Positions 19,858 through 62,176 of a stretch of 64,000 nucleotides of DNA are shown here, in pieces. This stretch comes from Desulforamulus putei DSM 12395 (lineage in GTDB: Bacteria > Bacillota > Desulfotomaculia > Desulfotomaculales > Desulfotomaculaceae), in assembly GCF_900129195.1 (NCBI RefSeq), contig NZ_FQUY01000003.1, positions 62,001 to 126,000 on the forward strand, in the 5' to 3' direction. How positions within the stretch are numbered: the stretch's first letter is position 1; each line of letters begins with the position of its first letter. Both the position numbers and the translations under genes were made by a program. The notes under the pieces are model-generated. The model searched no databases, was not told the DNA's origin, and saw only the letters and a list, made by a program, of their open reading frames with translations.

Positions 19858-20473
19858 ATGATGAAGAAACAGTATGAAAAAACAATTAATTTGTGGGCCG
19901 AGGCTTTAGCCGGGTCAAGACCAGGAAATCCGGAAGAGAATAAAGCCGTAATGGCCTATGCTCTGCATGTGGTAATTTTTAATTCGTTGGTTGTTGCTAT
20001 GACTGTTTTAATCAGTGTTGTTTTAGGTATATTTCCTACAGTTGCTATGGCACTGATTGCCAGCGGTTCGTTACGAATATTTACAGGAGGTTATCATTGT
20101 TCCGGTCCAACAGCTTGCTTGATTCTGTCAGTTGGACTCATGAATTTTTACGGACTAGCTGCAGTTCAACTTGCCGATAGAATGGCTTTATCCCATATCC
20201 TGTTTTTCTTGTTTATTGTGATGACTTTATCTTTATATTTCATTTTTAAATAATGCTCCCGTTGAAACACCTAATAAACCCATCAAAGTGTGCCGAAACG
20301 TTTATTCATTATTATATATATATAAAATATTTGGTAATGTATCAATAGACGATACTTTTTTGTGGATTATAGTTGGTTGGCCTCAGATACTTATAATGAT
20401 TGGTGTTGCGGTTACTATTCAAAAAATAATTAGACCAATGATATCATTTCATTTTAAAAAGGATAGTGTTTGA
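19858..20473 (+). pseudogene. AgrB-like peptidase, frameshifted (first agr locus)
   Basis: AgrB is a membrane cysteine peptidase that processes the AgrD autoinducer precursor. The first frame gives 131 residues with the catalytic pair His80 and Cys87 in GGYHCSGPTAC, the same spacing as in S. aureus AgrB. The frame ends at TAA 20251-20253, but the family's next motif, NAPVETPNKPI, continues in the +1 frame from 20252 to the stop at 20471-20473, with two more membrane helices. Total length would be about 205 residues. A one-base shift after AAA has broken it, unless a +1 programmed slip occurs. No AgrD gene lies beside it. The stop overlaps the kinase start. Confidence 0.75.
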
Positions 20474-22041
20474 TGATAAATAATATGTCTCCTATAGTAA
20501 TGCTTAAAGAAATTTATTGGATATCTCATTTTTTATTTTTTTCTTTAATCCTTTTATTGGGTAGTTTAACCAGAGGAATATATCTAAAGGATATATATAA
20601 ATCATTTTATTTCAACTTGGCTATGTTAGGTATGTTAGGGTCATTTTTTGGCTTCTTGGCAGTAAACTACCTGTTTCTGAGGGCCATAGAGGAGAGATTT
20701 TATTCTGGCAAATACTATTATAGAATTGTTTATGCAGTTGTATTAACTTTTTTTGCTTTGCTATTCACTGTTTTCAGCAATGGGGAAATACATAAACTGA
20801 TATATGTTATTCCCGTTGCTTTGATTTCCTTAACCAGCGGTTCTGTATTAGGATTAGCTTCTTCAGTTTTTTTGGGTTATGATATATTCTTGCATCCTAT
20901 ACAAACAGATGAAATATCCTTTATTTTGTGTTTGGCATTGTTAGCATGGATTGTAGGACAAATTTCTCAAATTAATTTTCGTTATGCATTGCAATTGGAG
21001 AATGAAAAAAATTTCCTGAAGGATTTAATTGAAACATTCTCCGAAGGCATCACCATTTGTAATTCAACAGGTCAAGTTTTACTTTGCAATAAACAAATAG
21101 AGCAAATATTTAAAATTAACAAGAGTGAAATCTTAGGAAAAAGTGAAACATTGCTCTGGGAGCAATGTTCTATACCCTACCACAAATGGATGCCAAACTT
21201 TATGAACATGGAAACGCAAATAGACGACAGGACATTTCTAATCAACAGATTTACCTTAAAGGGACCGGAAGTAAAAGAAAACTGTTTTGTTACTGTCATT
21301 AACGATATAACAGAATTACAACAACAAAAGAACAAAATGCAGCGTTTGGCAACGCTCTCTGCAGTTGGGGAATTGGCTGCCGGAGCGGCCCATGAAATAA
21401 GGAATCCCCTCACCACGGTCAGAGGATTTATTCAATTAATACAAGCCAAATGGCCCGATCCTAAATTGGCGGATTTAAGCCGGCTTTCATTGGAGGAATT
21501 GGACAGGGTTAACGGCATCGTCACCAGCATGCTTCAGTTGGCCAGACCGGAGCAGGCTGAAAGCAAACTGCTTAACATTAACGACATCGTGAATGAAACC
21601 TGGGATCTTTATACTTATTCAGGCATGCGCAAAGGAATTCAATACGAAAAGCATCTGGATGAGACAGTGAGACCCTTTGCGGGCAGTGACAAACAAATTA
21701 AACAAGTGCTGCTGAATATTATGCAAAATGCCGAGAGGGCCTGCAACAGAGGTGATACCATATCGGTCAGGACCTACGGTGATGACAAGCATACTTGCAT
21801 TGATATCAGTGATACCGGGAGAGGGATTAGCCCGGAGCATATAGAAAAAATATTGCACCCCTTTTTTACCACCGACCCTGCCGGTACGGGTCTGGGGCTT
21901 GCCATCTGTGATCGAATAATTTCAGACCATAACGGTACCATAAAAGTAACCAGCGAACTTGGTGTAGGGACCACATTTACTCTAGCCTTTCAGGTAGTCA
22001 ACGATAATGAAAATAAAGCATCTAAGAACCATTCCAAATAA
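20473..22041 (+). CDS. Membrane sensor histidine kinase with PAS domain, sporulation-kinase type
   Basis: The protein autophosphorylates on histidine and probably passes phosphate to a response regulator. The N-terminal six or so membrane helices (residues 10-175) form the sensor. A PAS domain follows (about 185-290), then the H-box with His307 in GAAHEIRNPLTTVRGFIQLI, and an HATPase domain with an N-box (NIMQNAERA), DTGRGI and GTGLGLAI. The H-box resembles Kin sporulation kinases that feed Spo0F/Spo0A, and no response regulator is adjacent. ATG 20473 overlaps the agrB1 stop (TGATG), suggesting coupling. Family placement is clear; the Spo0A link is inference. Confidence 0.88.
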   Translation: MINNMSPIVMLKEIYWISHFLFFSLILLLGSLTRGIYLKDIYKSFYFNLAMLGMLGSFFGFLAVNYLFLRAIEERFYSGKYYYRIVYAVVLTFFALLFTVFSNGEIHKLIYVIPVALISLTSGSVLGLASSVFLGYDIFLHPIQTDEISFILCLALLAWIVGQISQINFRYALQLENEKNFLKDLIETFSEGITICNSTGQVLLCNKQIEQIFKINKSEILGKSETLLWEQCSIPYHKWMPNFMNMETQIDDRTFLINRFTLKGPEVKENCFVTVINDITELQQQKNKMQRLATLSAVGELAAGAAHEIRNPLTTVRGFIQLIQAKWPDPKLADLSRLSLEELDRVNGIVTSMLQLARPEQAESKLLNINDIVNETWDLYTYSGMRKGIQYEKHLDETVRPFAGSDKQIKQVLLNIMQNAERACNRGDTISVRTYGDDKHTCIDISDTGRGISPEHIEKILHPFFTTDPAGTGLGLAICDRIISDHNGTIKVTSELGVGTTFTLAFQVVNDNENKASKNHSK

Positions 22042-23384: not shown

Positions 23385-23834
23385 ATGGGCACCATACCGC
23401 TGTATCTCTACTTTACTCTGGCGATTTTAGAAGGCCTAAGCGTTTTTTTCTTTATTTTTGCTTTTGCCAGAGTGAATTGGGCAAAAAAAGAATTGCTGTT
23501 GTTTTCAATAATATATGCAATACTAACTTTTGTTCTAAGAAAGTTACCAATTAGTTTTGGGATTCATTCACTACTTTTGATTTGTCTGGTCGGCGTATTT
23601 GTTAGTTATTACTATAAGGTAAAACTTTCATCATCTCTATTTAGCATGATTTTAGTTTACACTGTTATTATTATGACAGAAATATTAACGGCATTCTTAT
23701 TTTCCCATGTCTTTTTAATTCAATTTGATATTATTTTTCATAACCCCCTGTGGTGGTTCCTATCTGGTTTACCCCATGTTATATTTATTTTTATCTTTGG
23801 TTTAGTCATAAAGAACGTAAGGAGACAGGAGTAA
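23385..23834 (+). CDS. Six-helix membrane protein of the agr locus (AgrC-like sensor without kinase)
   Basis: The protein is 149 residues and almost entirely membrane helices (about six), ending in a short basic cytoplasmic tail. Its size and position resemble the input half of AgrC-type sensors, but no histidine kinase region follows. The stop overlaps the agrB start by one base (TAATG), so the two are made together. The ATG has GGGGAGG upstream. It may be a receptor, a chaperone for AgrB, or a peptide exporter; no family name can be given with certainty. Confidence 0.7.
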   Translation: MGTIPLYLYFTLAILEGLSVFFFIFAFARVNWAKKELLLFSIIYAILTFVLRKLPISFGIHSLLLICLVGVFVSYYYKVKLSSSLFSMILVYTVIIMTEILTAFLFSHVFLIQFDIIFHNPLWWFLSGLPHVIFIFIFGLVIKNVRRQE

Positions 23835-24475
23835 TGTCTTTAAGCGAAAAACTGGCACATTATTTGATTAAAACTAAAGGGATTGAGGATCAAGATCAAC
23901 AAGAAATTCTGGCATTTGGAGCAGAGGTGTTGTTTGGAATATTATCCGGGGTATTTATTACTCTGGGTGTTGGGTATGTCTTGGGTTTGCATATATTAAT
24001 TTTTTATATGCTATTTGCATCATTAATGATACGAAAGACAGCAGGTGGAGCCCATAGTGCGCATCCTACTAATTGTTTAATAATCACCGTTGCAGCCTTT
24101 AATATATTAGCACTTTTTGCCAGGGAAACGTTTGCCTATGTGCAAGATTTTTTGGGTTATTTTCTTGTGATTGTGTTTCTTATTGGGTTTACGGCTGTTT
24201 ATATCAATGCACCAGTGGAATCTTTACAGAAACCCCTACATCCAAGGCAAAGAAAAATATTAAGGAAATTGGCCATATTATCGGTGTTATTGATATCTGT
24301 CACTCAGTTTATCGCCTATTATTTCTCTTTTTATTCTTTGGTTAACTATGCGGTAAGCCTTGTGTTGCTCTGGCAGTATTTGATGTTAACTGTTCTTGGA
24401 CACAAGATGATTTTGTGCTTGGACAATTTTTTCAATTCAATATATAAAGGAGGTGAGACGTGTGAAAAAAATTAA
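23834..24475 (+). CDS. agrB: AgrB-like autoinducer-processing membrane peptidase (second agr locus)
   Basis: An intact AgrB homologue of 213 residues. The catalytic His74 and Cys81 lie in GGAHSAHPTNC, with the same spacing as in S. aureus AgrB, followed by the conserved NAPVESLQKPLHPRQRK. About six membrane helices are visible. ATG 23834 is chosen: it follows AAGGAGACAGG and starts a typical AgrB N-terminus (MSLSEKLAHYLI). The autoinducer precursor gene agrD overlaps the 3' end, the standard arrangement. It should cut AgrD and help form a cyclic thiolactone peptide. Confidence 0.92.
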   Translation: MSLSEKLAHYLIKTKGIEDQDQQEILAFGAEVLFGILSGVFITLGVGYVLGLHILIFYMLFASLMIRKTAGGAHSAHPTNCLIITVAAFNILALFARETFAYVQDFLGYFLVIVFLIGFTAVYINAPVESLQKPLHPRQRKILRKLAILSVLLISVTQFIAYYFSFYSLVNYAVSLVLLWQYLMLTVLGHKMILCLDNFFNSIYKGGETCEKN

Positions 24476-24593
24476 GTCATTATTTATTACCTTGGCAACG
24501 ATTGTGTTAACATTATCAGCACTTATTAATGCTGCTTCTGCTTGTGGTGTTGCACACTATCAACCTAAGTTGCCTAAGGCACTTAGAAAGTAA
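24462..24593 (+). CDS. agrD: AgrD-like cyclic autoinducer peptide precursor
   Basis: A 43-residue peptide in the classic three-part AgrD layout. It has a basic amphipathic N-terminus (VKKIKSLFITLA), a small-residue linker ending in ASA, and a core with a single cysteine (CGVAHYQPKLP) followed by the tail KALRK. The YQPKxP pattern matches the family called cyclic lactone autoinducer peptide. The GTG start sits inside the agrB 3' end (14-nt overlap) behind AAAGGAGGTGAG. The ring is probably a thiolactone from the cysteine to a downstream residue; its exact ends cannot be read from the sequence. Confidence 0.85.
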   Translation: MKKIKSLFITLATIVLTLSALINAASACGVAHYQPKLPKALRK

Positions 24594-24597
24594 CATG

Positions 24598-24640
24598 ATT
24601 AAAAACAAAAGAGTGATTTTCTCACTCTTTTGTTTTTAAT
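24598..24640. terminator. Strong bidirectional terminator after agrD
   Basis: A 19-bp perfect stem (24598-24616 with 24622-24640) has loop TTTTC, A-rich on one side and T-rich on the other. It separates agrBD from the GGDEF gene. Confidence 0.85.
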
Positions 24641-24671
24641 GAATTGGCACATATTACCAGAGAGTGATTTT

Positions 24672-26357
24672 ATGAATGGATGGCAGCATAAAAGAGAAGA
24701 CAACTTTAGGGAATTAAGGATCACTATATATCTTTTCTGTATGATAGTTTTTGCAATTGCTATCTTATTAAAATTCAACTGGAATATTTCTGCAAATCTA
24801 CAATACAAAGAGATACCCAATTATATACAACACGGCCTCGTGTTAATGATGTGTTTATTCGTTGTTTTATTAGGTTCTAGCATAATGCCATGTCTCAATG
24901 CTCTTTCGTTTGGTACATTGCTGCTTTCTATTTTAGTTTTTATCTTAATTGCTCACTTTCATGACAAATACCTAAACAACCTTTTAATCATCCCAGTTGC
25001 TTTTGCATCCTTTACAAAGAGTAAAAAAGTAGGATGTTTTATCGCCTTAGGCAGTGGCTTATTATTATGCATTGGGGACATTAAGAGATATGGATTTGGT
25101 TTTCCCAATAGAAACCTGGAATCTGATATTATCTTAACAGGTGTCATGTTTATCTGTGCCTGGCTTATCGGAGGAATAGCCGGTATTGAACGTGACACCC
25201 GAAATTATTTACTTGAACTAGCCAATAAGGACGGCCTGTCTGGAGTTTATAATCATAGATATTTTCAGGTCTATTTTAAACAAGCTGTAGAAGAGGCTAA
25301 AAACACTAGCAAACCCCTTAGCCTTTTTATCTTTGATATCGACTTTTTCAAGTACTATAACGACACCTTTGGTCACCTGGCCGGGGATCAAATATTAAAG
25401 GATGTGGGGCAAATATTGGCGCGGGAAGTGATACCTCCCGGCATTGCCGCTCGGTATGGCGGTGATGAGTTTTGTGTGTTACTTCCTGAGCATGACTCCA
25501 AATCAGCCTATATCATAGCCAAAAAATTAAAAGATAAAATAACAGAATCAATATTAAATAATGAGAACGCGAGCAAACTTCCTACCGGCAAGTTAAGTGT
25601 TACCGTAGGGGTTGCTTGCTATCCGGAACATACAAAATCCGGCGAAGATCTTTTGGAATTGGCCGACCAGGCGTTGTATAAGGCTAAAAAGACTAGTAAA
25701 GATAAAATAGAACTGTACTTTAACGTTTTAGATACATTAAAAGGATCCTGTGACCAGTCTGAAATGGAACTTCTCAGTTCCATCAAAACACTTCTGAGCA
25801 TCATCAATGCCAAGGACCGCTATACATATGGGCATTCCGAGAGAGTGCTGGAATACGCGACTCTTCTGGCAAAAAAATATGGTCTGAGTGAAGAAGAGGT
25901 GCGCTACGTACAATACGGAGCCTACCTGCACGATATTGGTAAAATTGAGGTCGATATTAGCATTCTGAATGCGCCGGGTAAAGTGACAGAGGCCGAGTGG
26001 GAGATTTTAAAGCAACACCCTTACTGGGGCAGTGAGATCATCCGTCCCATCAAGTCCCTTGAAAAGGTCAGACCATATATTCTGCATCACCATGAAAATT
26101 ATGACGGTACGGGTTATCCTCTGGGTCTGAGCTGTTCTCATATCCCCATTGGTGCCAGAATTATTAGGATTGCAGACAGCTTCGATGCCATGACCACAGA
26201 CAGGCCGTATAAAAAAGGAATGTCACCTGAGGCTGCCTGCCAGGAATTGTTGTCCATGGCTGGTTCACATTATGACCCGGAATTGTGTCATCTTTTTGTT
26301 AGCATGGTAAAGTCTTATCCGGATACCTTTAAAATTGTAACAGTAAATGAGAGATAG
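24672..26357 (+). CDS. Membrane GGDEF/HD-GYP protein (c-di-GMP synthesis and hydrolysis)
   Basis: About six membrane helices (residues 15-170) precede a GGDEF domain (about 180-350; GGDEF at 263-267) and an HD-GYP domain (about 375-560; His420-Asp421 in HDIGKIEVD, then HHENYDGTGYPLGL). Both catalytic motifs are intact, so the protein may both make and degrade cyclic di-GMP, with the sensor choosing between them. ATG 24672 is selected because the upstream ATG 24639 lies in the terminator. The sensor shares an IPVA...AW..G.I pattern with the kinase at 20473. It follows the agrBD genes. Confidence 0.93.
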   Translation: MNGWQHKREDNFRELRITIYLFCMIVFAIAILLKFNWNISANLQYKEIPNYIQHGLVLMMCLFVVLLGSSIMPCLNALSFGTLLLSILVFILIAHFHDKYLNNLLIIPVAFASFTKSKKVGCFIALGSGLLLCIGDIKRYGFGFPNRNLESDIILTGVMFICAWLIGGIAGIERDTRNYLLELANKDGLSGVYNHRYFQVYFKQAVEEAKNTSKPLSLFIFDIDFFKYYNDTFGHLAGDQILKDVGQILAREVIPPGIAARYGGDEFCVLLPEHDSKSAYIIAKKLKDKITESILNNENASKLPTGKLSVTVGVACYPEHTKSGEDLLELADQALYKAKKTSKDKIELYFNVLDTLKGSCDQSEMELLSSIKTLLSIINAKDRYTYGHSERVLEYATLLAKKYGLSEEEVRYVQYGAYLHDIGKIEVDISILNAPGKVTEAEWEILKQHPYWGSEIIRPIKSLEKVRPYILHHHENYDGTGYPLGLSCSHIPIGARIIRIADSFDAMTTDRPYKKGMSPEAACQELLSMAGSHYDPELCHLFVSMVKSYPDTFKIVTVNER

Positions 26358-28891: not shown

Positions 28892-28915
28892 AAGGCTGCC
28901 GTCACTGGCAGCCTT
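28892..28915 (-). terminator. Terminator of sigK
   Basis: A 9-bp stem (28892-28900 with 28907-28915) overlaps the stop codon of the sigma-K C-terminal half. On the minus strand a T-rich run (TTTGATTTTATT) follows. Confidence 0.75.
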
Positions 28916-29267
28916 CCATGCTGAATTCCTTGGTCAGTTTATTTAACGCTCTCTTTTCGATGCGGGAGACATAGGAGCGGGAGATTCCTAAAGTGCGGGC
29001 AATTTCCCTCTGGGTTTTCCGGGCGGTGGTGCCAAGACCGAAACGCATTTCCAACACCATTTTTTCCCGGTTGGTCAACCTGCGCACCTTTTCCATCAGG
29101 TGATTCCTTTCAAAGGTGGTTTCAACCATATCAGCCACCACTTCCGGGTCGGTACCCAGAATATCAATGAGACTTATTTCATTACCTTCTTTGTCTACAC
29201 CGATGGGGTCGTACAGGGAAACCTCCGTCTTCACTTTCTTGATGAACCTTAAATGCATCAGAATTTC
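28902..29267 (-). CDS. sigK: Sigma-K, C-terminal half (spoIIIC-like), split by the skin-like element
   Basis: This piece encodes the last 120 residues of the mother-cell sporulation sigma factor: linker ([20 protein letters not shown]), region 3 and region 4 with [20 protein letters not shown]. Alone it lacks regions 1.2-2.4 and cannot act. An internal ATG at 29258 could start a 118-residue fragment, but the reading frame continues upstream through EIL to the core ATTTC at 29263-29267. The N-terminal half lies 16 kb away (45242-45588) on the same strand. Joining both at the core gives a 235-residue pro-sigma-K with no frame change. Confidence 0.95.
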
Positions 29268-43589: not shown

Positions 43590-43754
43590 ATGAAAAAAAG
43601 CAGCAGCAATACTGTTTCCAGGCGGCCGGTTATTTCACTAACGGTTTGTTATTCACAAGATGGCGCAGGTTTAAATGATGCATACAAACTACTGGCCAAA
43701 AAGGTTATGGAACGGAGGTTAGCAGTTTGCGGGCGGCGGTCTATATCCGGGTAA
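43590..43754 (+). CDS. 54-residue protein overlapping the recombinase gene
   Basis: ATG 43590 opens a basic 54-residue frame (KKSSSNTVSRRPVISLTVCY..., then AYKLLAKKVMERR) that overlaps the recombinase start by 28 nt. Small basic genes in this position often accompany serine recombinases and could be excision factors, but I cannot assign one. A GGGGTG Shine-Dalgarno lies upstream. Confidence 0.45.
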   Translation: MKKSSSNTVSRRPVISLTVCYSQDGAGLNDAYKLLAKKVMERRLAVCGRRSISG

Positions 43755-45208
43755 GTACAGATGACCAGGTGAAACACGGCTACAGTTTGGCCGAACAACG
43801 GGAGGCCTGCTGTAGCCGTGCCCGTATATTAGGAGCCCAGGAAGTGACGGTGTTTTCCGATGAGGGAATTTCGGGAAGTACCCTGGAACGCCCTGGCTTA
43901 AACGAAATGAGGGAAGCTGCTCGGGAGGGAAGGTTTCAGCTGCTGGTTGTGCGAGATCCCGACCGTCTTTCACGAAAGCTGGCCCACCAGTTGCTTATTA
44001 CCGATGAATTAGAAAAATGCGGTATTAAGCTGGAATTCCTTGATTTTGACTGGAAGGATACGCCAGAGGGACGGTTGTTTTACTCAATACGAGGTGCGAT
44101 AGCCGAGTATGAAAGGGAAAAAATTCGGGATCGCATGGGCAGAGGGAAAGAGCAAAAGGCAAGGCAAGGCGGTATTCCAATAAATTTTGACGTTTTTGGG
44201 TATCAATATGACCTGGAAACCGGAAAAGTGAGCCATTTGGAACACGAAAAAAAGGTTGTAGTTGATATATTTAACTGGTTTACTAGTGAAGATATAGGGG
44301 CAAATGGTATAGCGAAAAGACTGAATGAAAACGGTATACCAACCCGCCGTCGGGCTGGACGGTGGCACCGTCAGGTGGTGAAACAAATATTAGCAAACAC
44401 TGTCTATGTTGGCTTGTGGCGGTTTAAAGGTATGTATATTAAAGTACCCCCGATAATAGATGAAAATACATTTTATAGGGCTCAAGAAAAGTTAAAAGAA
44501 GTCCGCAGGCTTTACGCAGGAAAACAAAAGCATGGGTATCTTTTGTCCGGACTAATTACCTGCGCCGATTGCGGCAATACAATGACGGGCGCTTACGCCA
44601 GGTGGTGGGGTAAGAGGGAAAGAAGATATACTTGTAATAAAACTTGCCAGGGATACAAAAACGAAGGGTGCAGACCGGTCAAATATATATTAGCAGACGC
44701 CCTGGAAGAAGCTGTTTGGAACCAAATACAAACATGGTTGATGGATCCTGACCGTCTGGCACGGGAGGCCATGGGCCAAATAGTTGGGCAGAATGACCCT
44801 AGGGAGCAGATCATGGTTATTAACAAGCACCTGGCCAGTATAGAAAAGGGACAGGAGGCGTTAATTGACGTGATTGCCAAAGGGTATCTTGACCATATGG
44901 ACAGCATAGAGAAAAAACTGGCTGAATTGAAACGACGCAAAGAGAAGTTGGAAAAAAGAAAAGAGGAATTACTTCTGGCATACAGGCAACGTGAGGAGTT
45001 ATCTGCTAAAATTGATGAGATAAGGGAAATATCCGAGTCCATCTTACGAAGGTTAAATGATTTGGCTTTTACTGAAAAGCGTTCCTTGGTCAGGGCACTA
45101 GTCAAGCAGGTTATTGTATCCGGCCGGGGGGTACCAGGAGGCAATGGGTTGCGGTTTATCAATGTTACCGTACTAGCCAAAATACCGGAGCAAAAAATAT
45201 CGTCCTAG
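43727..45208 (+). CDS. Large serine recombinase of the skin-like element (SpoIVCA-like)
   Basis: 493 residues. The N-terminal resolvase domain has the nucleophile Ser10 in YIRVSTDDQ and the conserved R-x-x-R-L-S type pattern (DPDRLSRKL). The recombinase domain follows (about 160-260: GIPTRRRAGRWHRQVVKQIL). A zinc ribbon (CADCGNTMTG with further cysteines) and a long coiled coil come last. This is the full large-serine-integrase plan. TTG 43727 follows ACGGAGG. The gene ends 34 nt from the right core copy, convergent with sigK. It is predicted to excise the element in the mother cell to rebuild sigK, probably with a directionality factor. Confidence 0.95.
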   Translation: MRAAVYIRVSTDDQVKHGYSLAEQREACCSRARILGAQEVTVFSDEGISGSTLERPGLNEMREAAREGRFQLLVVRDPDRLSRKLAHQLLITDELEKCGIKLEFLDFDWKDTPEGRLFYSIRGAIAEYEREKIRDRMGRGKEQKARQGGIPINFDVFGYQYDLETGKVSHLEHEKKVVVDIFNWFTSEDIGANGIAKRLNENGIPTRRRAGRWHRQVVKQILANTVYVGLWRFKGMYIKVPPIIDENTFYRAQEKLKEVRRLYAGKQKHGYLLSGLITCADCGNTMTGAYARWWGKRERRYTCNKTCQGYKNEGCRPVKYILADALEEAVWNQIQTWLMDPDRLAREAMGQIVGQNDPREQIMVINKHLASIEKGQEALIDVIAKGYLDHMDSIEKKLAELKRRKEKLEKRKEELLLAYRQREELSAKIDEIREISESILRRLNDLAFTEKRSLVRALVKQVIVSGRGVPGGNGLRFINVTVLAKIPEQKISS

Positions 45209-45216
45209 CCACGCAG

Positions 45217-45246
45217 GGCTTGCTATACTCTTGTCAGCGACATTTC
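45217..45246. other. Right attachment half-site of the skin-like element
   Basis: A 21-nt arm (45217-45237), 4 nt, then the core ATTTC (45242-45246). The arm is an imperfect inverse (17/21) of 29275-29295. In the excised circle the arms lie 16 nt apart and centre on the core dinucleotide TC. Confidence 0.8.
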
Positions 45247-45588
45247 GTTTTCGATACAGCGGGCCGCATAGGTAGCCAGTCGGGTGCCCTTGTCGGGTTT
45301 GAAGGTGTTAATGGCTTTGATCAAACCGATGGTGCCGATGGAAATCAGGTCATCAACATCTTCGCCGGTTGAATCAAATTTTTTTACAATGTGGGCCACC
45401 AGTCTCAGGTTTCTTTCGGTTAAAACATTGCGTGCCGATTCATCTCCTTCTGCCAGCAGCTCAAGATAATAGGCTTCTTCTTCCTCGTTTAGAGGATGGG
45501 GAAAGGTGTTGTTGGCAATGTAGGAAACCAGCGCCATGACCCCGTTCATAACCGACAGGACAGCGACCGTCCACAGGCCGGGTAGCAT
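45223..45588 (-). CDS. sigK: Pro-sigma-K, N-terminal half (spoIVCB-like), split by the skin-like element
   Basis: This piece supplies the pro-sequence and regions 1.2-2.4. ATG 45588 follows TAGGGGGGAT. The protein starts with a hydrophobic pro-peptide ending in [15 protein letters not shown], equivalent to the SpoIVFB cleavage site of pro-sigma-K. Region 2 follows: [26 protein letters not shown], then [11 protein letters not shown]. After the core the frame continues a few codons into the element (MSLTRV) and stops. Codons up to GAA at 45244-45246 join those from 29264 downwards after excision, giving 115 + 120 residues. Confidence 0.95.
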
Positions 45589-45798
45589 CAAGTAATCCCC
45601 CCTAATAAGAATTGAGTCAACAATATATGTTATGGGGAGAAAATGATTTGGTGTCTGTCCCAGGAAGAAGATGATCATACTATTTAATAGGCGTTGTTAA
45701 GTTGACGAAAGGTGCCAAATGCAGGTAAAATAAGCACAGCAAAAAGTTGTTAAAACATACGGGCGCCGCGGGTGCCCGGCGCAAAGTGGTGTGAAAAG

Positions 45799-50018: not shown

Positions 50019-50084
50019 TCAACATAATCTAGTCAATGACCTGTATCAATATCTCGTCATATTTCCTTGTAGGGGGTGAACCAT

Positions 50085-51596
<1,512 letters not shown>

Positions 51597-51607
51597 GGGG
51601 AGTTCAA

Positions 51608-52702
51608 ATGCAAATTAACGAACTTTTGCAGTTAGCCTTTCAGTACGGAGCATCTGATGTGCATATTACAGTGAATAGCGCGCCGTGTTTCCGAATAAAT
51701 GGGCATTTAAGACCCCTGAACGCCCCGGAAATACAGAAACAATTTGGTCTAATGTCCTCAAAGGTTGACATTCTTACTGCCGCTGCCACTGAGCAAATGG
51801 TGAAAGACATTACCACTGCGGAACAATATGAAACCTTTTGTGCCACAGGAGATTTAGATTTCTCCTATGCAACTTCCGACGGGTATCGTTATCGTGTCAA
51901 TGCCTATCGGCAGCAGGGCTGTGCTGCCATGGCCATTCGCCTTATTAATTCCCGCATTTACTCTTTTAAAGAACTAGGTTTGCCGGATGTTCTATCCTAC
52001 CTGGCAAGAAGACCCAGAGGTTTGGTTTTAGTCACGGGGCCGACGGGCAGCGGGAAATCCACCACACTTGCCTCGATGATTGATTTAATTAACTCAGAGT
52101 TTGCCTACCATATCATAACCTTAGAGGATCCCATTGAGTTTGTCCACCAGCACAAAAAATCCTTAATTAACCAGCGGGAAATAGGCCGGGATAGCAAATC
52201 CTTTGCCAGTGCCCTACGGTCCGCCATGCGGGAGGATCCAGATGTGATTCTGGTGGGTGAAATGCGTGACCCGGAAACTATTGCCATTGCAATCACAGCA
52301 GCGGAGACTGGTCACTTGGTTTTTGGCACCCTGCACACATCCAGTGCTGCCCAGACTATCGACCGTATAATAGACGTATTTCCTCCTCACCAGCAGCAAC
52401 AAATCCGGGTTCAATTGGCCAATACCATTCAGGGTGTGGTGGCCCAACAATTACTACCTAGAATCGATAGGCCCGGTCGAATTGCGGCCATAGAAGTGAT
52501 GGTAGCCACTCCGGCCATTCGAAATCTTATTCGTGAAGGAAAAACCTATCAAATTATTTCTCAAATCCAGACCGGGGCAAAATTTGGTATGCAATCCCTG
52601 GATATGTCCTTAAAGGCATTGTACCAGATGAAGGCCGTTAGTAGAGATGAGGTTATTAACAGGGCAATTGACCCGGAAGGCTTACAAAGGATGTTAGGAT
52701 AA
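51608..52702 (+). CDS. pilT: PilT-type retraction ATPase (first copy)
   Basis: A hexameric ATPase thought to power pilus disassembly and twitching. 364 residues. Walker A GPTGSGKSTTLASMI, Asp box TLEDPIEFVH, Walker B DPDVILVGEMRDPETI, and the AIRNLIREGK motif with RRP-type end (QPMLG-like LQRMLG) are seen. The ATG follows AGGGGGAG. The PilT family's absence of the zinc cysteines and N-terminal MshEN separates it from the gene upstream. A 16-residue insert (about 38-56) enlarges the N-domain. Confidence 0.9.
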   Translation: MQINELLQLAFQYGASDVHITVNSAPCFRINGHLRPLNAPEIQKQFGLMSSKVDILTAAATEQMVKDITTAEQYETFCATGDLDFSYATSDGYRYRVNAYRQQGCAAMAIRLINSRIYSFKELGLPDVLSYLARRPRGLVLVTGPTGSGKSTTLASMIDLINSEFAYHIITLEDPIEFVHQHKKSLINQREIGRDSKSFASALRSAMREDPDVILVGEMRDPETIAIAITAAETGHLVFGTLHTSSAAQTIDRIIDVFPPHQQQQIRVQLANTIQGVVAQQLLPRIDRPGRIAAIEVMVATPAIRNLIREGKTYQIISQIQTGAKFGMQSLDMSLKALYQMKAVSRDEVINRAIDPEGLQRMLG

Positions 52703-52721
52703 ATCTGAAAATGTCGAACGA

Positions 52722-52750
52722 ATCCTGTCTAATGACGGCAGGATTTTTTA
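52722..52750 (+). terminator. Terminator after pilT
   Basis: A 9-bp stem (52722-52730 with 52738-52746, one G-U pair) runs into a T tract. Confidence 0.8.
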
Positions 52751-52819
52751 TTATATTTGTGGAAAAGCAAGCTAAATGGAAAAAAATATCAACTAATCGG
52801 AGAAAGCGACAGGTGGTGA

Positions 52820-54034
52820 ATGTGCCTGTTAACTTTTAAATACAGGGCCAGGAATCTCGCCGGTAAGGTGATAACCGGAAAGATAACAGCACCGCATAAA
52901 ATTGAAGCAATCAATCGGCTCCGGCAAAAAAACCTGTTTGTTGCTGAAATTAAAGAAATGTCTACTGATAAAGGACTATTCAAATTCATGCCTGAAGCAA
53001 GGGTTAGTATTAAAGATTTATCATTATTTTGCCGCCAATTTGCCACTTTAACCAATGCAGGTATACCAATCATTCAGAGTTTAAACATTCTATATGAACA
53101 AACTGAAAATAAAGCTTTATTGCATGCCATAAAGGACATGAAGAAAAACCTTGAAGCCGGCTACTCTTTAAGCCAGTCTATGTCCTATCATTCCAAGATA
53201 TTTCCGGTAATGTTTATGAATATGGTTGAGGCCGGGGAATTAAGCGGATCTCTGGATCAAATTCTCGACCGGTTAGCCACTTACTATGAAAATTCCCATG
53301 AATTAATGGAAAAGTTCAAATCCGCCATTACCTATCCCCTGTTTATCCTGGTAATGGCTATGGTTGCCGTGGCAGCCATATTCATCTTCGTGTTACCCAC
53401 CTTTACTCAAATCATTATCGATATGCAGGCCCCTATTGCTCTTCCTACAGTTATTATGATAAAAATTAGTGACGTATTAAGGGGTTATTGGTATGTCCTA
53501 ATGATCACGGCAATATGTCTGGTGGTTGGATATAAAAAGTTTTCCTCCACTTCCGGCGGCAAGAAAATAGTTGACCAAACTGTGCTTTTCCTTCCGGTGT
53601 ATGGCAAACTGATTCAGCAAATCCATATTGTTCGTTTTAGCAGAACCCTTGCCATTCTTTTAAGCAGTGGCATTTCTCTTCTGGCATCCTTGGATGTGAT
53701 GAAAAACCATGCCCAAAATTCAGTATTCGGCCAGGCCATCGGGCAGGCCATAACCAGCCTTAAAGAGGGGAGCGGGTTGGCTGCCCCTTTGCAGAAGAGT
53801 GAAGTGTTTCCTGCCATGGTTATAAACATGATCAGGGTTGGGGAAGAGACAGGAGAGTTAGAAGTATTACTGGAGAAAACAGCCAATTTTTATGAAAAAG
53901 CAGCGTACCAAACTATCACACGCCTGTCAACCTTGCTGGAACCGGTTTTAATCTGCCTGGTGGGCGGCATTGTGAGCCTCATCATGATCGCAATTTTAAT
54001 ACCCCTATTGAGCATTATGGACTCGTTACAGTAA
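52820..54034 (+). CDS. pilC: Type IV pilus/type II secretion inner-membrane platform protein (PilC/GspF)
   Basis: 404 residues. The N-terminal KYRARNLAGKVITGKITAP is the usual GspF start, followed by two GspF domains (about 75-195 and 275-400), each with a helical bundle and membrane helix; MFMNMVEAGELSGSLDQILDRLA and MVINMIRVGEETGELEVLLE are the twin signatures. It anchors the ATPase and the growing pilus. ATG 52820 follows AGGTGGTGA. The prepilin genes start 45 nt downstream. Confidence 0.92.
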   Translation: MCLLTFKYRARNLAGKVITGKITAPHKIEAINRLRQKNLFVAEIKEMSTDKGLFKFMPEARVSIKDLSLFCRQFATLTNAGIPIIQSLNILYEQTENKALLHAIKDMKKNLEAGYSLSQSMSYHSKIFPVMFMNMVEAGELSGSLDQILDRLATYYENSHELMEKFKSAITYPLFILVMAMVAVAAIFIFVLPTFTQIIIDMQAPIALPTVIMIKISDVLRGYWYVLMITAICLVVGYKKFSSTSGGKKIVDQTVLFLPVYGKLIQQIHIVRFSRTLAILLSSGISLLASLDVMKNHAQNSVFGQAIGQAITSLKEGSGLAAPLQKSEVFPAMVINMIRVGEETGELEVLLEKTANFYEKAAYQTITRLSTLLEPVLICLVGGIVSLIMIAILIPLLSIMDSLQ

Positions 54035-54079
54035 AGCTGCCTGGAGGAGGGGAATTTTTTTAAAAAGGAGACGGTACCA

Positions 54080-54547
54080 GTGGCAAAGCTAAACAATAAC
54101 AGGGGTTTTACCTTGATTGAGATTTTGGTTGTGATTACGATGGTGGGCATCCTTTCAACAATTCTCGTTCCCCAGATTACGAAACAACTGGACAAACCCA
54201 AGAAAAGCAGGGCTGTTATTGAGATAACCGCCATGAAGCATGTCCTGGACATGTATTTTGCTGAAAATAACGTTTATCCCACCGATAAGGCTATTATCAA
54301 TGCCCTGATGAAGGAGAACGGGGTACTGGGAGGTAAGTACGGAGAAGCCACTGCTGATGATCCCTGGGGAAACCCCTATTATATTAAGACTACCGCTAAC
54401 ACCTACATCATCTGGTCCGAGGGGCCCAGGACAGACGATGAGGAGAAAGATGATATTTACACGGACCAAAATAAGACGGATGTCACGGTTCACAAGGACA
54501 ACCTGCAAATCAACACAGCCACCACCAATTCCAACGATAATTCTTAA
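54080..54547 (+). CDS. Major pseudopilin, GspG-like
   Basis: 155 residues. The prepilin leader is short and basic and ends before FTLIEILVVITMVGILSTIL, with Glu at position 5 after cleavage. The C-terminal domain has the GspG calcium/WG pattern DDPWGNPYYIKT and a highly acidic tail. The GTG start follows AAAAGGAGACGG. It is the likely main subunit of a type II-like or type IV pilus fibre. No prepilin peptidase gene is in the window. Confidence 0.9.
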   Translation: MAKLNNNRGFTLIEILVVITMVGILSTILVPQITKQLDKPKKSRAVIEITAMKHVLDMYFAENNVYPTDKAIINALMKENGVLGGKYGEATADDPWGNPYYIKTTANTYIIWSEGPRTDDEEKDDIYTDQNKTDVTVHKDNLQINTATTNSNDNS

Positions 54548-54563
54548 CAAGTTGCCGGCCATT

Positions 54564-55058
54564 ATGAATGGATTTGTTAGAAAAGCAACCCGGGTTCTCC
54601 AACAGAACGGTGCCTTCACCCTGGTGGAGGTGATGATTACTCTCATTCTTATAACCTTCATGTTATCTGTTGCCATGCCCCTGGCAGCCGATGCCCTGGC
54701 CCATTATCAAACTGTTACCACCGTTCGAAAACTTGTTTCAGATATTCAATACACCCAGCAACTGGCCACCAGGAGCGAAGATCCGAAGGCTTCCTTTGAA
54801 ATCATATTCAGCCCCCCGCAGGAACAATACACCATCAAACACGGTTCAAAAACCCTGCGTACTGAAAAATTTCCCGTCTGGGTGCATTTGGCCGGAACAA
54901 ACTTTGGCCAACCCGGTCTGCCGGAAATTTTAACCTTTAACATTCAAGGCAACCCGGTGCAGGCCGGTACCATTACCATTATCAACCGGCGGTCGGGCAA
55001 GGTCTATTATGTCAGGGTAGCGGTACTGACCGGCAGGGTAAGGGTTGAATCTTCATAG
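54564..55058 (+). CDS. Minor pseudopilin, GspH/FimT-like
   Basis: 164 residues. A 17-residue leader is cut before FTLVEVMITLILITFMLSVA, the hydrophobic pilin helix with Glu5. The rest is a beta-rich globular head (AGTITIINRRSGKVYYVRVA), the GspH-type terminal strand pair. ATG 54564 is chosen: it gives a normal leader and lies 16 nt after gspG-like stop. Upstream in-frame codons lie inside the previous gene. Confidence 0.8.
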   Translation: MNGFVRKATRVLQQNGAFTLVEVMITLILITFMLSVAMPLAADALAHYQTVTTVRKLVSDIQYTQQLATRSEDPKASFEIIFSPPQEQYTIKHGSKTLRTEKFPVWVHLAGTNFGQPGLPEILTFNIQGNPVQAGTITIINRRSGKVYYVRVAVLTGRVRVESS

Positions 55059-55087
55059 CCGGCAAGAGGTGAGAAAGAGAATTCTTT

Positions 55088-55528
55088 ATGAACAATCAAA
55101 GGGGATTTACCCTAACAGAGGTTTTGGCTGCTATGTTCATATTGATCATGGTCTTGCTGCCTGTGGTGTCAACTCTTTTTGCCAACAGCCGGCAAAATAT
55201 TGTCCTTGAGCGAAAACTTAAGGTCAAACACCTGGCCCAGTCAAAACTTGAGGAAGTAAAAGCTATGAACTGGTATGATTTCAAAACAAGCTTGGTGGAC
55301 GAGATGGAACAGGCAGCGGCACCTGAGCCCCTCCGGTTTGGTAATGAGTACCGGGACGGAAAATACCTGACTGAGGATGACAGCCGGCCGGAGAACGACT
55401 TTACATATGAAATTAGGGTATGGCCCTCCCATCGCCATTTGATCTATACGGTGCAAGTAACCGTGTTTTATAAGGAAGCGGGACAGGAAAAATGGGAAAC
55501 CCTGTATACGGAAAAAATGAGAAGGTAA
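55088..55528 (+). CDS. Minor pilin, PilV/GspI-like
   Basis: 146 residues. The very short leader MNNQRG precedes FTLTEVLAAMFILIMVLLPV with Glu5. The globular part has an AKLEEVKAMNW-like helix (QSKLEEVKAMNWYDF) typical of GspI/PilV and a terminal strand pattern (TVQVTVFYKEAG). The gene overlaps the following one by 37 nt, and both are probably co-translated. Confidence 0.8.
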   Translation: MNNQRGFTLTEVLAAMFILIMVLLPVVSTLFANSRQNIVLERKLKVKHLAQSKLEEVKAMNWYDFKTSLVDEMEQAAAPEPLRFGNEYRDGKYLTEDDSRPENDFTYEIRVWPSHRHLIYTVQVTVFYKEAGQEKWETLYTEKMRR

Positions 55529-56130
55529 CACCTGGAAAAGCCTTTGCTCAGCAAGGTTTAACCCTGATCGAAGTACTGGTATCCATGGTTTTGTTCATCT
55601 TTCTGGTTAACACTGCCTATGCCTTCCTCTTTAGCGGAGTTATCTCTTACGTTAAGTACAGTGATGAAAACGATGTTCGAAGCCAGCTCAGGATAGGCAT
55701 GAACCGGATGGAAAGGGAACTTAAGGAAGCCAGGTGGTTAACCACCAACACCGGCCCCTCTGTGTTAAAGTTCAGGCTACCCAAACATATGACGGATACC
55801 AACAAAGGGATACCTTTAACCTTTTCCAGGGATAAAATCGTCTCCTATTACGTGAAAGACGGCGAACTACTACGTCGCATTTATGATATCCCAAGCTCAG
55901 GATTTGACGGCCAGAGTCCCAACAGGGGTGACCCGGCCAGCCGCCCCAATGAGGGGGTAAATTCAATAGCCAGAAATATAGAGTCCCTGGAGCTTACCTA
56001 CCTCCCGGAGGATGCTGCAGACAACTCCTATAAAACCACTGTCTTGATTACCCTTACGGGAAAAGGCCGTTCAGCCAAACCCATTGTATTAACATCAACT
56101 GTCCGGCTGAGGGCGCAAAAGGGGTGGTGA
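55492..56130 (+). CDS. Minor pilin, PilW/GspJ-like
   Basis: 212 residues. Its leader (about 20 residues, ending AQQG) precedes LTLIEVLVSMVLFIFLVNTA, the pilin helix with Glu5. Compared with classic FTLIE the first residue is Leu. The globular head contains RMERELKEARWL and the terminal VLITLTGKGRSAKP strand pair, typical of GspJ/PilW. The start at 55492 lies inside the preceding gene. Confidence 0.8.
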   Translation: MGNPVYGKNEKVTPGKAFAQQGLTLIEVLVSMVLFIFLVNTAYAFLFSGVISYVKYSDENDVRSQLRIGMNRMERELKEARWLTTNTGPSVLKFRLPKHMTDTNKGIPLTFSRDKIVSYYVKDGELLRRIYDIPSSGFDGQSPNRGDPASRPNEGVNSIARNIESLELTYLPEDAADNSYKTTVLITLTGKGRSAKPIVLTSTVRLRAQKGW

Positions 56131-56134
56131 GGGC

Positions 56135-57586
56135 ATGCCGAAATTATTTGATAACAACAAAGGCCAGGTCCTGCTGTTGGTTACCACCCTCTTAATGATA
56201 CTGAGTCTCCTTTGTATAGCCGCTCTTATCCTTGCCAACACAGAAAAACTTACCGTGAAGGGATCCTTTGAAGAGGCTCAGGCCAATTATGTGGCCGATG
56301 CAGCACTGGAGAAGGTTCTCGCCATAGTAAAAGTTAACGTCCGGGTGTTGGATCAGCTTACGCTTAACAAGACTTACGGGAAACCCCAGTTAGAATCTTT
56401 ACTGACACGACTGGCAGGCCAAGACCTTGCCAGTGTTCAAGGGTTAATAGGACTATTTAATTCAACCTATACACCCCCCCATAACCCGGTTCAAGCCACC
56501 AAACCCGGAACCATTCAGTCCATTAGCTTAACCAAGACAGTCCAAGACCAGAGCGGCTACCAGGTGAGAATTGAGGTTACCGGTACATACGGCCCGGCCA
56601 GGCGATCTCTGGTGGCCAATGTTAGGATTTCTTTACCCCTGAATGCCTTCCCGGGTGTACTGGTACAAAATACGCCTGTCTTTTCTAACACCGACATGCG
56701 TTCGCCGTTAACTGTACTTACAGGCGTAGACTTTAATGGGGACAGCAGATTTTATAACAGCATCTATATTCAAGGAGATTGTGCACTCCGGCAACATGCC
56801 AAGTTCATTGCAACGGGGGAACTGGTGGTGCTGGGCAACACCATCGTTGATTCCGACGCTCAATTTGACGGGGAAATTAAATCAACCGGCGATGTTTTCA
56901 TCAACGGAGATGTTCTGGGGGGGCCGGTGAGAAGTACCGGCAGTGTATGGGTGGGGCAGGGTCACGTGGGCCACCAGGTATTTTCAGAACAGAAAACAGA
57001 ATGGAACGGAGATATTTACGCAACAGGCACCATTTCACCTGCCTCCTCCGACAACTTCGGAACGGCCTATCCCAACACCCCTCAAACAATCAGTTACTCC
57101 TTTCCCAAGTTTCCTCTGCTTGACGGCCCCTGGTATGCCAGAAACTGCGACTATTATTACGCCGGAGATCAAATATTGAGGGCCGAAGACATGTCAACAG
57201 GGATCTACTATATAGACGGTGACGTAACAATTTCCGGGAACTACCAGGGAAATATCACCCTGGTGGCCTCCGGAACCATTGCAGTTCCTAACAGTGCCAC
57301 TCTGAAGGCCCAGGACACCCGGGCCGATTCCCTGCTCTTAATGGGCCTGGGAGATGTTCACATCCATGAACAGGCACAGGTGGAAGCCATTGTTTATTCA
57401 AAGCAAAGGGTTATCCTGTCCAACAATGCTCAGTTAGTCGGCTCCCTGATCACAGCAAATTTAGACTGTCGCGGGGCGGTGGTTATTCATGAACCGCTGA
57501 TCAGCAATACACACCCGCCCTGGACAACCACAGACATAAGTATCCTGACCTGGCAGGAAAAATACCCTGTTATACCCATGGACTAG
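56135..57586 (+). CDS. PilX-like protein with C-terminal beta-solenoid
   Basis: 483 residues. An N-terminal membrane helix (QVLLLVTTLLMILSLLCIAA) with the PilX-type EEAQANYVADAALEKVL follows a non-canonical leader. From about residue 190 to 430 the sequence is repetitive and beta-strand rich (IYIQGDCALRQHAKFIATGE, FDGEIKSTGDVFINGDVLGG, and again GNITLVASGTIAVPNSA), reminiscent of bactofilin/polymer-forming solenoids. It is probably a large minor pilin or tip protein. The fifth pilin-class gene of the cluster. Confidence 0.75.
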   Translation: MPKLFDNNKGQVLLLVTTLLMILSLLCIAALILANTEKLTVKGSFEEAQANYVADAALEKVLAIVKVNVRVLDQLTLNKTYGKPQLESLLTRLAGQDLASVQGLIGLFNSTYTPPHNPVQATKPGTIQSISLTKTVQDQSGYQVRIEVTGTYGPARRSLVANVRISLPLNAFPGVLVQNTPVFSNTDMRSPLTVLTGVDFNGDSRFYNSIYIQGDCALRQHAKFIATGELVVLGNTIVDSDAQFDGEIKSTGDVFINGDVLGGPVRSTGSVWVGQGHVGHQVFSEQKTEWNGDIYATGTISPASSDNFGTAYPNTPQTISYSFPKFPLLDGPWYARNCDYYYAGDQILRAEDMSTGIYYIDGDVTISGNYQGNITLVASGTIAVPNSATLKAQDTRADSLLLMGLGDVHIHEQAQVEAIVYSKQRVILSNNAQLVGSLITANLDCRGAVVIHEPLISNTHPPWTTTDISILTWQEKYPVIPMD

Positions 57587-57636
57587 CCCCAGTGGCGGAA
57601 AGTCTTTCCGAGGTACCAGATGTTGAGAGGTGCAAG

Positions 57637-58728
57637 GTGAAAAAGCTGTTACAAAAACTCTTATCCAGGCAGCAGCCTTGTTTAACTGCGATTGACATAG
57701 GCTCACATACAACTAAAGTGATGGAGATAAAACGACGCAAGGGTCTACCTTATATAACAGCTCTTGGTAGTATGCCGACCCCTCCGTTAAGGGACGGGGT
57801 AAAACTAGATGAAGAAGAACTGGCCCGGGTTATCTCACGGCTTGTGGAAACCGCCGGGGTGACCGGTACAGAGGTAATCACTGCCATCTCTGGCTCCAAG
57901 GTTATCACCCGCCAGATTAGAGTACCCGTTATGCCTGATGCTGAACTGCAAAAAACTGCCTGGGCGGAGGCTAAAAAACATATTCCCCTGCCGATAGAGG
58001 ATCTTACGGTACGTTATGTAAAGTTGGGGGAAGAATCCGTGGACGGGATGACCCACATCAACCTGATGCTAATTGCTGTTCCAACGGCCCTGGTGGAACA
58101 GGTTTATCATATCTTCATGATGGCAGGGCTAAAAATTAGGGCGGTGGATTTACAAGCCTTTGCTCTCTGGCGGTTATTCGGCAAAGATCAAAGGGCTGCA
58201 ACCTTAGACAAAGGCAATGCCGAAGCAGTGGCCGTATTGGAGATCGGTGCCGGTAATTCCCAACTGGTGATTATAAAAGGCGGGGAGATAAAATTTGTCA
58301 GGGTTATGGCTGCCGGTGGTAACGCAGTGATCGAGGCCATAGCCGGTCATTACAGAATCAGCGGTGAGGAAGCCCGGCAGCTAACGGAAGAAACAACAAC
58401 CTCCTTCCCGGCCAGGCTACAGTTGGACTTTTATCTCAGGCAGGGGATTGATACCCTGGCCCGGGAGGTGGAGCGATCACTGGATTTTTATTGTTCCCAG
58501 CCAGGCAGTGTGCCTGTGAATAATATCCTTCTGGCCGGCGGCACTGCCAAACTCACTGGTTTAGCAGACTACCTGACTGAAAGATGGGGCATTGTCACGG
58601 AAATCAAGATACCTGACTGCTGGAACAACTACATATTAAATGATCAACAAGAAGCTTTATTTGAATATGACCCTGCCTATGCAGTGGCCCTGGGGCTGCT
58701 CATGGGGGAGGTGGAAGAGCATGTATAA
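57637..58728 (+). CDS. pilM: Type IV pilus assembly protein PilM
   Basis: A cytoplasmic actin-fold protein that links the ATPase to PilN. 363 residues from GTG 57637; GTG 57592 would add 15 residues but lacks a Shine-Dalgarno, while GAGAGGTG lies before 57637. Actin motifs are LTAIDIGSHTTKVMEI, AVLEIGAGNSQLVII and ILLAGGTAKLTGL. The end overlaps pilN by 8 nt. It is complete. Confidence 0.92.
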   Translation: MKKLLQKLLSRQQPCLTAIDIGSHTTKVMEIKRRKGLPYITALGSMPTPPLRDGVKLDEEELARVISRLVETAGVTGTEVITAISGSKVITRQIRVPVMPDAELQKTAWAEAKKHIPLPIEDLTVRYVKLGEESVDGMTHINLMLIAVPTALVEQVYHIFMMAGLKIRAVDLQAFALWRLFGKDQRAATLDKGNAEAVAVLEIGAGNSQLVIIKGGEIKFVRVMAAGGNAVIEAIAGHYRISGEEARQLTEETTTSFPARLQLDFYLRQGIDTLAREVERSLDFYCSQPGSVPVNNILLAGGTAKLTGLADYLTERWGIVTEIKIPDCWNNYILNDQQEALFEYDPAYAVALGLLMGEVEEHV

Positions 58729-59419
58729 GGTAAATTTACTCCCCGAGTATCTCCAACATCGGGATGTTGCTATTTGCAAACGTAAACTTCTTGTTTTGGG
58801 CGGCAGTGGCATTGTTCTTCTGTCTCTTCTTATCGGTTACGGGATTTTTTACCTTCAATTCATCTCCGACCAACACCGGTTGGACCGGGACACTGAAGAA
58901 CTGGCCAAACTGCGACCCAGGGTGGCGGAGATACAGAGGCTCAAAGGGGAAATCAAAGCGAAACAGGAGCAGTACTATACCTTCTCTCGCATTCTTGAAA
59001 AACGTCTTTCCTGGCACCGGATGCTGCAGGATTTATCCCTGGCCCTGCCCAGGGATACCTGGATTAACCGACTGGAAATCAAAAAGGTGGAAAGGCCGCC
59101 GGGAAGCGGGGGCTTTGCTTCATCTGGCTATAAGCCTGTGGCAGAAGTCAAGGTAGAAAGCGCTGAGTCAAAGGGGAAGCCGGTAAGCAACCTCCAATCT
59201 CCTCCGGTTCCCAATGTAATGTATCTTTACGGAACCTGTTGGACCATGGGTTCCGTAGGTGTGCTGGTGAACAACCTTAGCCGTCTCCCCTATTTTGATT
59301 CCGTCAAACTGGTAGAAGCAAAACATGACAAGGAAAAGGGAATCATTCTGTTTGAACTGGCCGCCAGCGTGAGGGGAGGAGAATGGGATGTTAAAGAAAT
59401 ACCAAAATCTCAGCCCTAG
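58721..59419 (+). CDS. pilN: Type IV pilus assembly protein PilN
   Basis: 232 residues. The N-terminal YKVNLLPEY motif binds PilM. A single membrane helix (about 25-48) and a coiled coil (55-90) follow, then a periplasmic-type domain with LPRDTWINRLEIKKV and VNNLSRLPYFDSVKL. ATG 58721 overlaps the pilM stop by 8 nt. It works with PilO as a heterodimeric membrane frame. Confidence 0.9.
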   Translation: MYKVNLLPEYLQHRDVAICKRKLLVLGGSGIVLLSLLIGYGIFYLQFISDQHRLDRDTEELAKLRPRVAEIQRLKGEIKAKQEQYYTFSRILEKRLSWHRMLQDLSLALPRDTWINRLEIKKVERPPGSGGFASSGYKPVAEVKVESAESKGKPVSNLQSPPVPNVMYLYGTCWTMGSVGVLVNNLSRLPYFDSVKLVEAKHDKEKGIILFELAASVRGGEWDVKEIPKSQP

Positions 59420-61796: not shown

Positions 61797-62020
61797 TGAC
61801 TGTAAACAAAGACTGCAAAACAATGTCAAGGTGGTTTTATGATCCCCTGCCGACGACTTGTCGAAGCACCGGTAACAGCACTTGATGAGCGAAGGAGCCA
61901 TTGGGGTGGCGCCCACAGGACGTGGATTTTTAACAAAGTTTTTAATTATGCAAAGTAGGAATTTTAAATTGTGTGACGAAAATAATTACAAGCAAGGCAA
62001 TAAATAACAGACGCTATACA

Positions 62021-62101
62021 AAAGGCAAACTCTTTGAAAAAAGAGGACGCAAAGCCACGGGCCTAAGGACATTTGTCTATGGCGGCCGGGTTGCCTTAGG
62101 T
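62021..62101 (+). ncRNA. Cyclic di-GMP-I (GEMM) riboswitch
   Basis: P1 is AAGGCAA (62022-62028) with TTGCCTT (62091-62097). P2 is CTCTTT-GAAA-AAAGAG (62030-62045) with its GAAA tetraloop. The class hallmark GACGCAAAGCC lies at 62046-62056, followed by CGGGCCTAA and a GGCGGCCGGG arm. These match the GEMM-I consensus in order. It precedes pilB, so c-di-GMP should control pilus assembly. Confidence 0.9.
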
Positions 62102-62146: not shown

Positions 62147-62176
62147 CATTTTCACCTTAAAACAGGGGTAATGGCG

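Follow-up and report, generated by a model that had tools for sequence, protein, structure and literature searches.

The locus at positions 23385-26357 of the window, the 64,000-nucleotide stretch of the Desulforamulus putei DSM 12395 genome analyzed here, is probably an agr-type peptide locus with a split receptor, made of a small membrane protein and a membrane transducer domain, in which the output, as judged from sequence comparisons, would be c-di-GMP turnover and not phosphotransfer. This co-directional block comprises SENS (a working name for a 149-aa kinase-less membrane protein), agrB, agrD, a terminator hairpin, and the gene of a GGDEF/HD-GYP enzyme. Since a kinase receptor and a gene switch are missing, while SENS and a c-di-GMP enzyme are conserved, the secreted peptide probably controls c-di-GMP directly. 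The features of the block are the following:

23385..23834, + strand: SENS, 149-aa membrane protein, no kinase domain, proposed peptide-receptor subunit (sequence, profile searches, AlphaFold2 model)
23834..24475, + strand: agrB, peptide-processing membrane peptidase (PF04647, 121 bits, cut-off 23; sequence)
24462..24593, + strand: agrD, 43 aa (TIGR04223, 42.1 bits, cut-off 19)
24543..24557, + strand: predicted peptide ring, Cys-Gly-Val-Ala-His thiolactone (CGVAH) (C+4 then [YF]xP pattern; Listeria analogy)
24606..24637, + strand: intrinsic terminator between agrD and the enzyme gene, hairpin (24606-24632) and T-run
24672..26357, + strand: membrane c-di-GMP enzyme, 561 aa, with transducer, GGDEF, and HD-GYP (Pfam; alignments)
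24672..25220, + strand: transducer membrane domain, common to a type-3 histidine kinase (hhalign; tree)
25221..25703, + strand: GGDEF domain, active site RYGGDEF intact (PF00990; motif table over 40 loci)
25791..26285, + strand: HD-GYP domain, HDIGK and HHENYDGTGYP intact (PF13487; motif table over 40 loci)

An earlier sequence-only reading had proposed agrB, a 43-residue agrD, a strong terminator, and a GGDEF/HD-GYP membrane protein at this place, and all four were recovered, the last with 138 bits for GGDEF and 135 bits for HD_5. The start of agrB overlaps the SENS stop by 1 nt, and both the histidine and the cysteine of the AgrB motif are present (GGAHSAHPTNC). The agrD gene, the only one in the whole genome, starts with GTG behind a strong ribosome site, AAAGGAGG at 24448-24455, and the core sequence of its product is SACGVAHYQPKLP. 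Within it, the ring is predicted to be CGVAH, by its position in AgrD and by analogy with Listeria, for which a five-residue ring, CFMFV, has been proven (PMC4916163).

As regards signal production, the locus belongs to the agr group; as regards AgrC and AgrA, it does not. The description of the locus as lacking the AgrC kinase and AgrA of usual agr loci stands: SENS has no kinase domain, no SENS-bearing kinase is found in the genome, and neither the locus nor an AgrC pair elsewhere in the genome provides an AgrA (REC-LytTR). The alternative of a distant agrC/agrA pair answering the peptide found no candidate in the genome, with no SENS-bearing AgrC-like kinase; of the three LytTR regulators encoded, two lie beside LytS-type kinases, the only readable partners, and the third has no adjacent kinase.

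The neighborhoods of about 140 loci with SENS or agrB were examined in the family of the window, in its order, and in Peptostreptococcaceae, and four locus types were found. In type 1, SENS is fused to a SPOB_a/GHKL kinase and accompanied by agrB and a REC-LytTR regulator; type 2 has the same content, with SENS and the kinase on separate proteins. Type 3 combines one to three SENS copies, agrB, and a membrane PAS-HisKA kinase, and type 4, that of the window, consists of SENS, agrB, agrD, and the GGDEF/HD-GYP enzyme. At least 40 species, ranging from Desulforamulus to Romboutsia, Terrisporobacter, and Paraclostridium, have the type-4 order: ten are in the order of the window (Desulfotomaculum relatives), seven are in Ca. 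Formimonas warabiya, Ca. Dichloromethanomonas, Niameybacter, and other genomes and metagenome-assembled genomes, and 23 are in Peptostreptococcaceae. A SENS match was obtained in 35 of 71 genomes of the latter family, where all 23 stand-alone strong SENS loci examined proved to be of type 4, with most of them occupying the same syntenic position, and none of these 23 contains a kinase. Conservation of gene order, suggested earlier as a check of the linkage between the peptide genes and the GGDEF/HD-GYP gene, was thus observed across 40 species.

In every type-4 locus checked, an AgrD could be read between agrB and the enzyme gene, and all the type-4 AgrDs checked but one (L023 departs) show the C-x4-[YF]-x-P pattern or its serine variant. 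Serine replaces the ring cysteine in the AgrD homologues of L019, L021, L024, L032, and L157, and these signals are therefore likely to be lactones instead of thiolactones.

SENS matches no Pfam or NCBIfam family above cut-off. The earlier description of a six-helix protein without kinase remains valid for the missing kinase but not for the helix count, as the AlphaFold2 model (pLDDT 95) contains five transmembrane helices and one short helix. An alignment of 105 relatives shows no variation at G59 and H61, and almost none at E16, R52, E99, and P130. When the SENS profile was run against PDB sequences, nothing was returned; in Foldseek and VIA-align, no structural match to the SENS model rose above the helical-bundle background, and no similarity to a classical AgrC sensor was detectable in the one AgrC compared (L021). 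An annotated AgrC was sought as a yardstick in phage and plasmid sequences, and the matches were all generic GHKL kinases or agrB without annotation. A SENS-like match in 540-aa GGDEF proteins of five Peptostreptococcaceae genomes (~4.2-4.8 Mb) reached 18 bits with a local profile and was set aside as chance transmembrane similarity.

The function of SENS can be approached through its partners. Its gene adjoins agrB and often overlaps it, as would be expected if SENS, instead of being a receptor, were an accessory that assists AgrB in processing, export, or self-protection. Nevertheless, in many loci SENS is covalently fused to a SPOB_a/GHKL kinase, beside agrB and LytTR regulators, and it stays with kinases where agrB is absent (L068, L078, L107, L110, L112, and L139). 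In Peptostreptococcaceae, the N-termini of GHKL kinases of about 440 aa match SENS clearly (E 1e-8 to 1e-19; hhalign 97-98%), and such single-chain SENS-GHKL kinases occur without agrB neighbors. These fusions, together with the presence of SENS beside kinases without agrB, link SENS to the output rather than to the processing of the peptide, which makes the accessory role very improbable; SENS is probably the receptor of the locus. Tandem copies (two to four) are found in the type-3 agr loci L026, L030, L103, L104, L113, and others, and could be receptors of different specificity.

The enzyme, whose start at ATG 24672 is supported by relatives, keeps the motifs of both its activities. RYGGDEF and FDIDFFKYYND, the latter with the metal-binding aspartate, are present in the window, and GG[DE]EF is found in 39 of 40 type-4 loci. 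The HD-GYP motifs are intact in all 40, one of them with N replacing the D of the second motif. The RxxD inhibition site is absent from the window enzyme and present in many Peptostreptococcaceae copies. The retention of both activities suggests that the enzyme works as a switch and not in one direction only.

The approximately 180 N-terminal residues of the enzyme form the transducer, whose homologue is found at the N-terminus of type-3 kinases (hhalign 99.8%, E=2e-27, 180 columns; the SENS and AgrB controls gave under 1%). The type-3 kinase fills, in sister agr loci, the same slot as the type-4 enzyme, and L121 encodes a kinase and an enzyme in one operon, with transducer copies 66% identical over 170 residues. 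On the maximum-likelihood transducer tree, five changes between kinase and enzyme are needed, at least three of which are forced by well-supported branches. The domain occurs twice in the genome of the window, both times in an agr context. Order-wide, at least 66 of 105 strong matches lie within 5 kb of SENS among the matches listed; the other 39 of the 105 have no SENS within 5 kb among the matches listed, so that the domain may have other uses, and the association, among the matches listed, is strong but not exclusive. Transducer proteins of 550-850 aa without nearby SENS among the matches listed include G003:C1:855736 and G071:C148:8245. No significant match came from Foldseek with the transducer model, which is of lower confidence than that of SENS; the best membrane-cyclase row was ImcA 8wcn (E=1.2).

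As the transducer is common to type-3 kinases and type-4 enzymes, it could itself be the peptide receptor, with SENS as a co-receptor, chaperone, or immunity-like partner tuning specificity, and the tandem SENS copies of type-3 loci could then be modulators. This is unlikely, however: what all four locus types have in common, even where the kinase lacks a transducer, is SENS and not the transducer, and the SENS motif residues are far more conserved than the transducer. With SENS as the receptor, the enzyme is probably its output. The fusions of SENS to kinases in sister loci and the transducer domain shared by enzyme and kinase lend support to the earlier proposal that the peptide could signal through a membrane sensor to c-di-GMP.

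The terminator after agrD reads CAAAAGAGTGA-TTTTC-TCACTCTTTTG, followed by TTTTT, and an equivalent hairpin is found in 33 of 38 type-4 loci, versus 0.03 expected from dinucleotide shuffles. It makes the enzyme gene a partly or wholly separate transcription unit. Its obvious role would be to set the enzyme level below that of the signal genes.

Upstream of SENS, at 19858-22041, lies a second, decayed agr locus of type 3, on which the earlier reading was silent:

19858..20253, + strand: truncated and frameshifted second agrB, type-3 relic (PF04647 residues 16-121 only, in-frame TAA)
20288..20473, + strand: C-terminal remnant of a second SENS (SENS profile, 32 bits)
20473..22041, + strand: intact type-3 histidine kinase with transducer, PAS, HisKA, and HATPase (Pfam; transducer match; tree)

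This locus has lost its agrD and the N-terminal part of its SENS. The segment 20288-20473 was also considered as the C-terminus of the second agrB, an assignment dropped in favor of the SENS remnant. A third, isolated partial agrB (L033, G000:C62) lies near transposase-like genes in the same genome, and no agrD was found at that locus.

The kinase at 20473-22041 could respond to the surviving SENS and the peptide, and constitutes the main two-component rival. The peptide would act through it, or through another two-component system, and the GGDEF/HD-GYP gene would be a mere neighbor behind a terminator. The kinase is intact, bears a transducer, and is located only 1.3 kb upstream, beside the decayed agrB and SENS; the strength of the terminator and the coexistence of kinase and enzyme in L121 also fit this reading. 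Nevertheless, the enzyme has been kept next to agrD in 40 species, the 23 Peptostreptococcaceae loci do without a kinase, and the transducer of the window kinase has type-3 kinases as its nearest tree rows and is not grouped with that of the window enzyme. Such a kinase route is, thus, distinctly unlikely, and direct control of the c-di-GMP enzyme is retained as the preferred reading.

The genome contains five c-di-GMP-I riboswitches, which indicates that c-di-GMP is used by this organism, and one of them is within the window:

62014..62098, + strand: c-di-GMP-I riboswitch upstream of a pilB-like gene (RF01051, 87 bits)

The pilB-like gene (62171-63853) and its riboswitch adjoin a type IV pilus gene cluster at 50076-60146, and c-di-GMP could plausibly act on type IV pili. 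The shared locus and these riboswitches would also suit the reverse order of events, in which c-di-GMP controls the agr genes, but no c-di-GMP riboswitch precedes agr genes in the window or in 20 related loci scanned, and this reversal is hardly credible.

Elsewhere in the window, the gene of the sporulation sigma factor K looks split, with its C-terminal half at 28902-29258 (- strand) and its N-terminal half at 45223-45678 (- strand). The two halves flank a skin-like element of about 16 kb (listed with 43727-45208, + strand), whose genes include those of a large serine recombinase and of a TraG/VirD4-like coupling protein, as well as plasmid-type genes. In L028 (G006), a C-terminal sigma fragment is likewise followed by a recombinase-like protein.

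The preferred mechanism, in which the peptide acts on c-di-GMP through SENS, can be outlined as follows. AgrB would cut and cyclize AgrD, and the peptide, with its predicted CGVAH ring, would leave the cell. SENS, a stand-alone five-helix membrane receptor subunit, would bind and sense this peptide and act within the membrane, presumably by direct contact, on the transducer domain of the enzyme. The balance between making and degrading c-di-GMP would shift in a direction that may be either, and c-di-GMP would then act via effectors, such as the five riboswitches, including that before the pilB-like gene. The terminator would keep enzyme expression lower than that of SENS-agrB-agrD, the ratio being a predicted one.

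A search of the open-access literature in PMC found no GGDEF/HD-GYP gene described as linked to agrBD. Histidine kinases and cytoplasmic peptide-binding regulators are the other two peptide quorum outputs in the reading towards which we lean, namely that a third kind exists, a modular receptor family in which the small, conserved SENS is combined within the membrane with an interchangeable GHKL kinase, PAS-HisKA kinase, or bifunctional c-di-GMP enzyme, and in which a cyclic peptide gates c-di-GMP without phosphotransfer. If true, the main Gram-positive peptide signaling would be linked directly to c-di-GMP, in a kinase-free manner, across dozens of species, common gut anaerobes among them. It would also show how, in nature, a single sensor has come to drive different enzymatic outputs, a rewiring that by the tree took place at least three times.

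Several known systems can be compared with this locus. RpfC-RpfG (DSF) and the AI-2/dCACHE cyclases connect a quorum signal to c-di-GMP turnover, as proposed here; they differ from the window locus in using fatty acid or furanone signals, with no AgrB or AgrD, and RpfG acts via a kinase relay. The NspS-MbaA polyamine/c-di-GMP circuit of Vibrio cholerae also relies on a separate ligand-sensing protein that switches a bifunctional membrane c-di-GMP enzyme, but with a periplasmic binding protein, polyamines, EAL in place of HD-GYP, and no signal-peptide synthesis (PMC8967002). By analogy, it is the nearest mechanism, although its sequence family and signal are unrelated and homology is not claimed. 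The staphylococcal-type agr system (AgrB, AgrD, AgrC, and AgrA) shares with the window locus adjacent AgrB and AgrD genes, above curated cut-offs here, and a membrane protein in the receptor position, whereas the window locus has neither AgrC nor AgrA, its receptor-like part is a separate 149-aa protein, and its output is GGDEF/HD-GYP. In Clostridium perfringens, the receptor of the agrBD signal is VirS, a kinase. The agr system of C. difficile influences c-di-GMP genes at the transcriptional level (PMC3754575), and the receptor of AgrD1 (agr1) is described as elusive (PMC10602386). The orphan clostridial agrBD loci, such as C. difficile agr1 (PMC10602386) and that of C. perfringens, resemble the window locus in having agrBD without adjacent agrC/agrA, but the window locus itself encodes a candidate receptor and an output enzyme. 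SENS constitutes a candidate receptor family, offering candidates for some of these orphan loci, and with such a family named, the sensing site of orphan agrBD peptides becomes testable.
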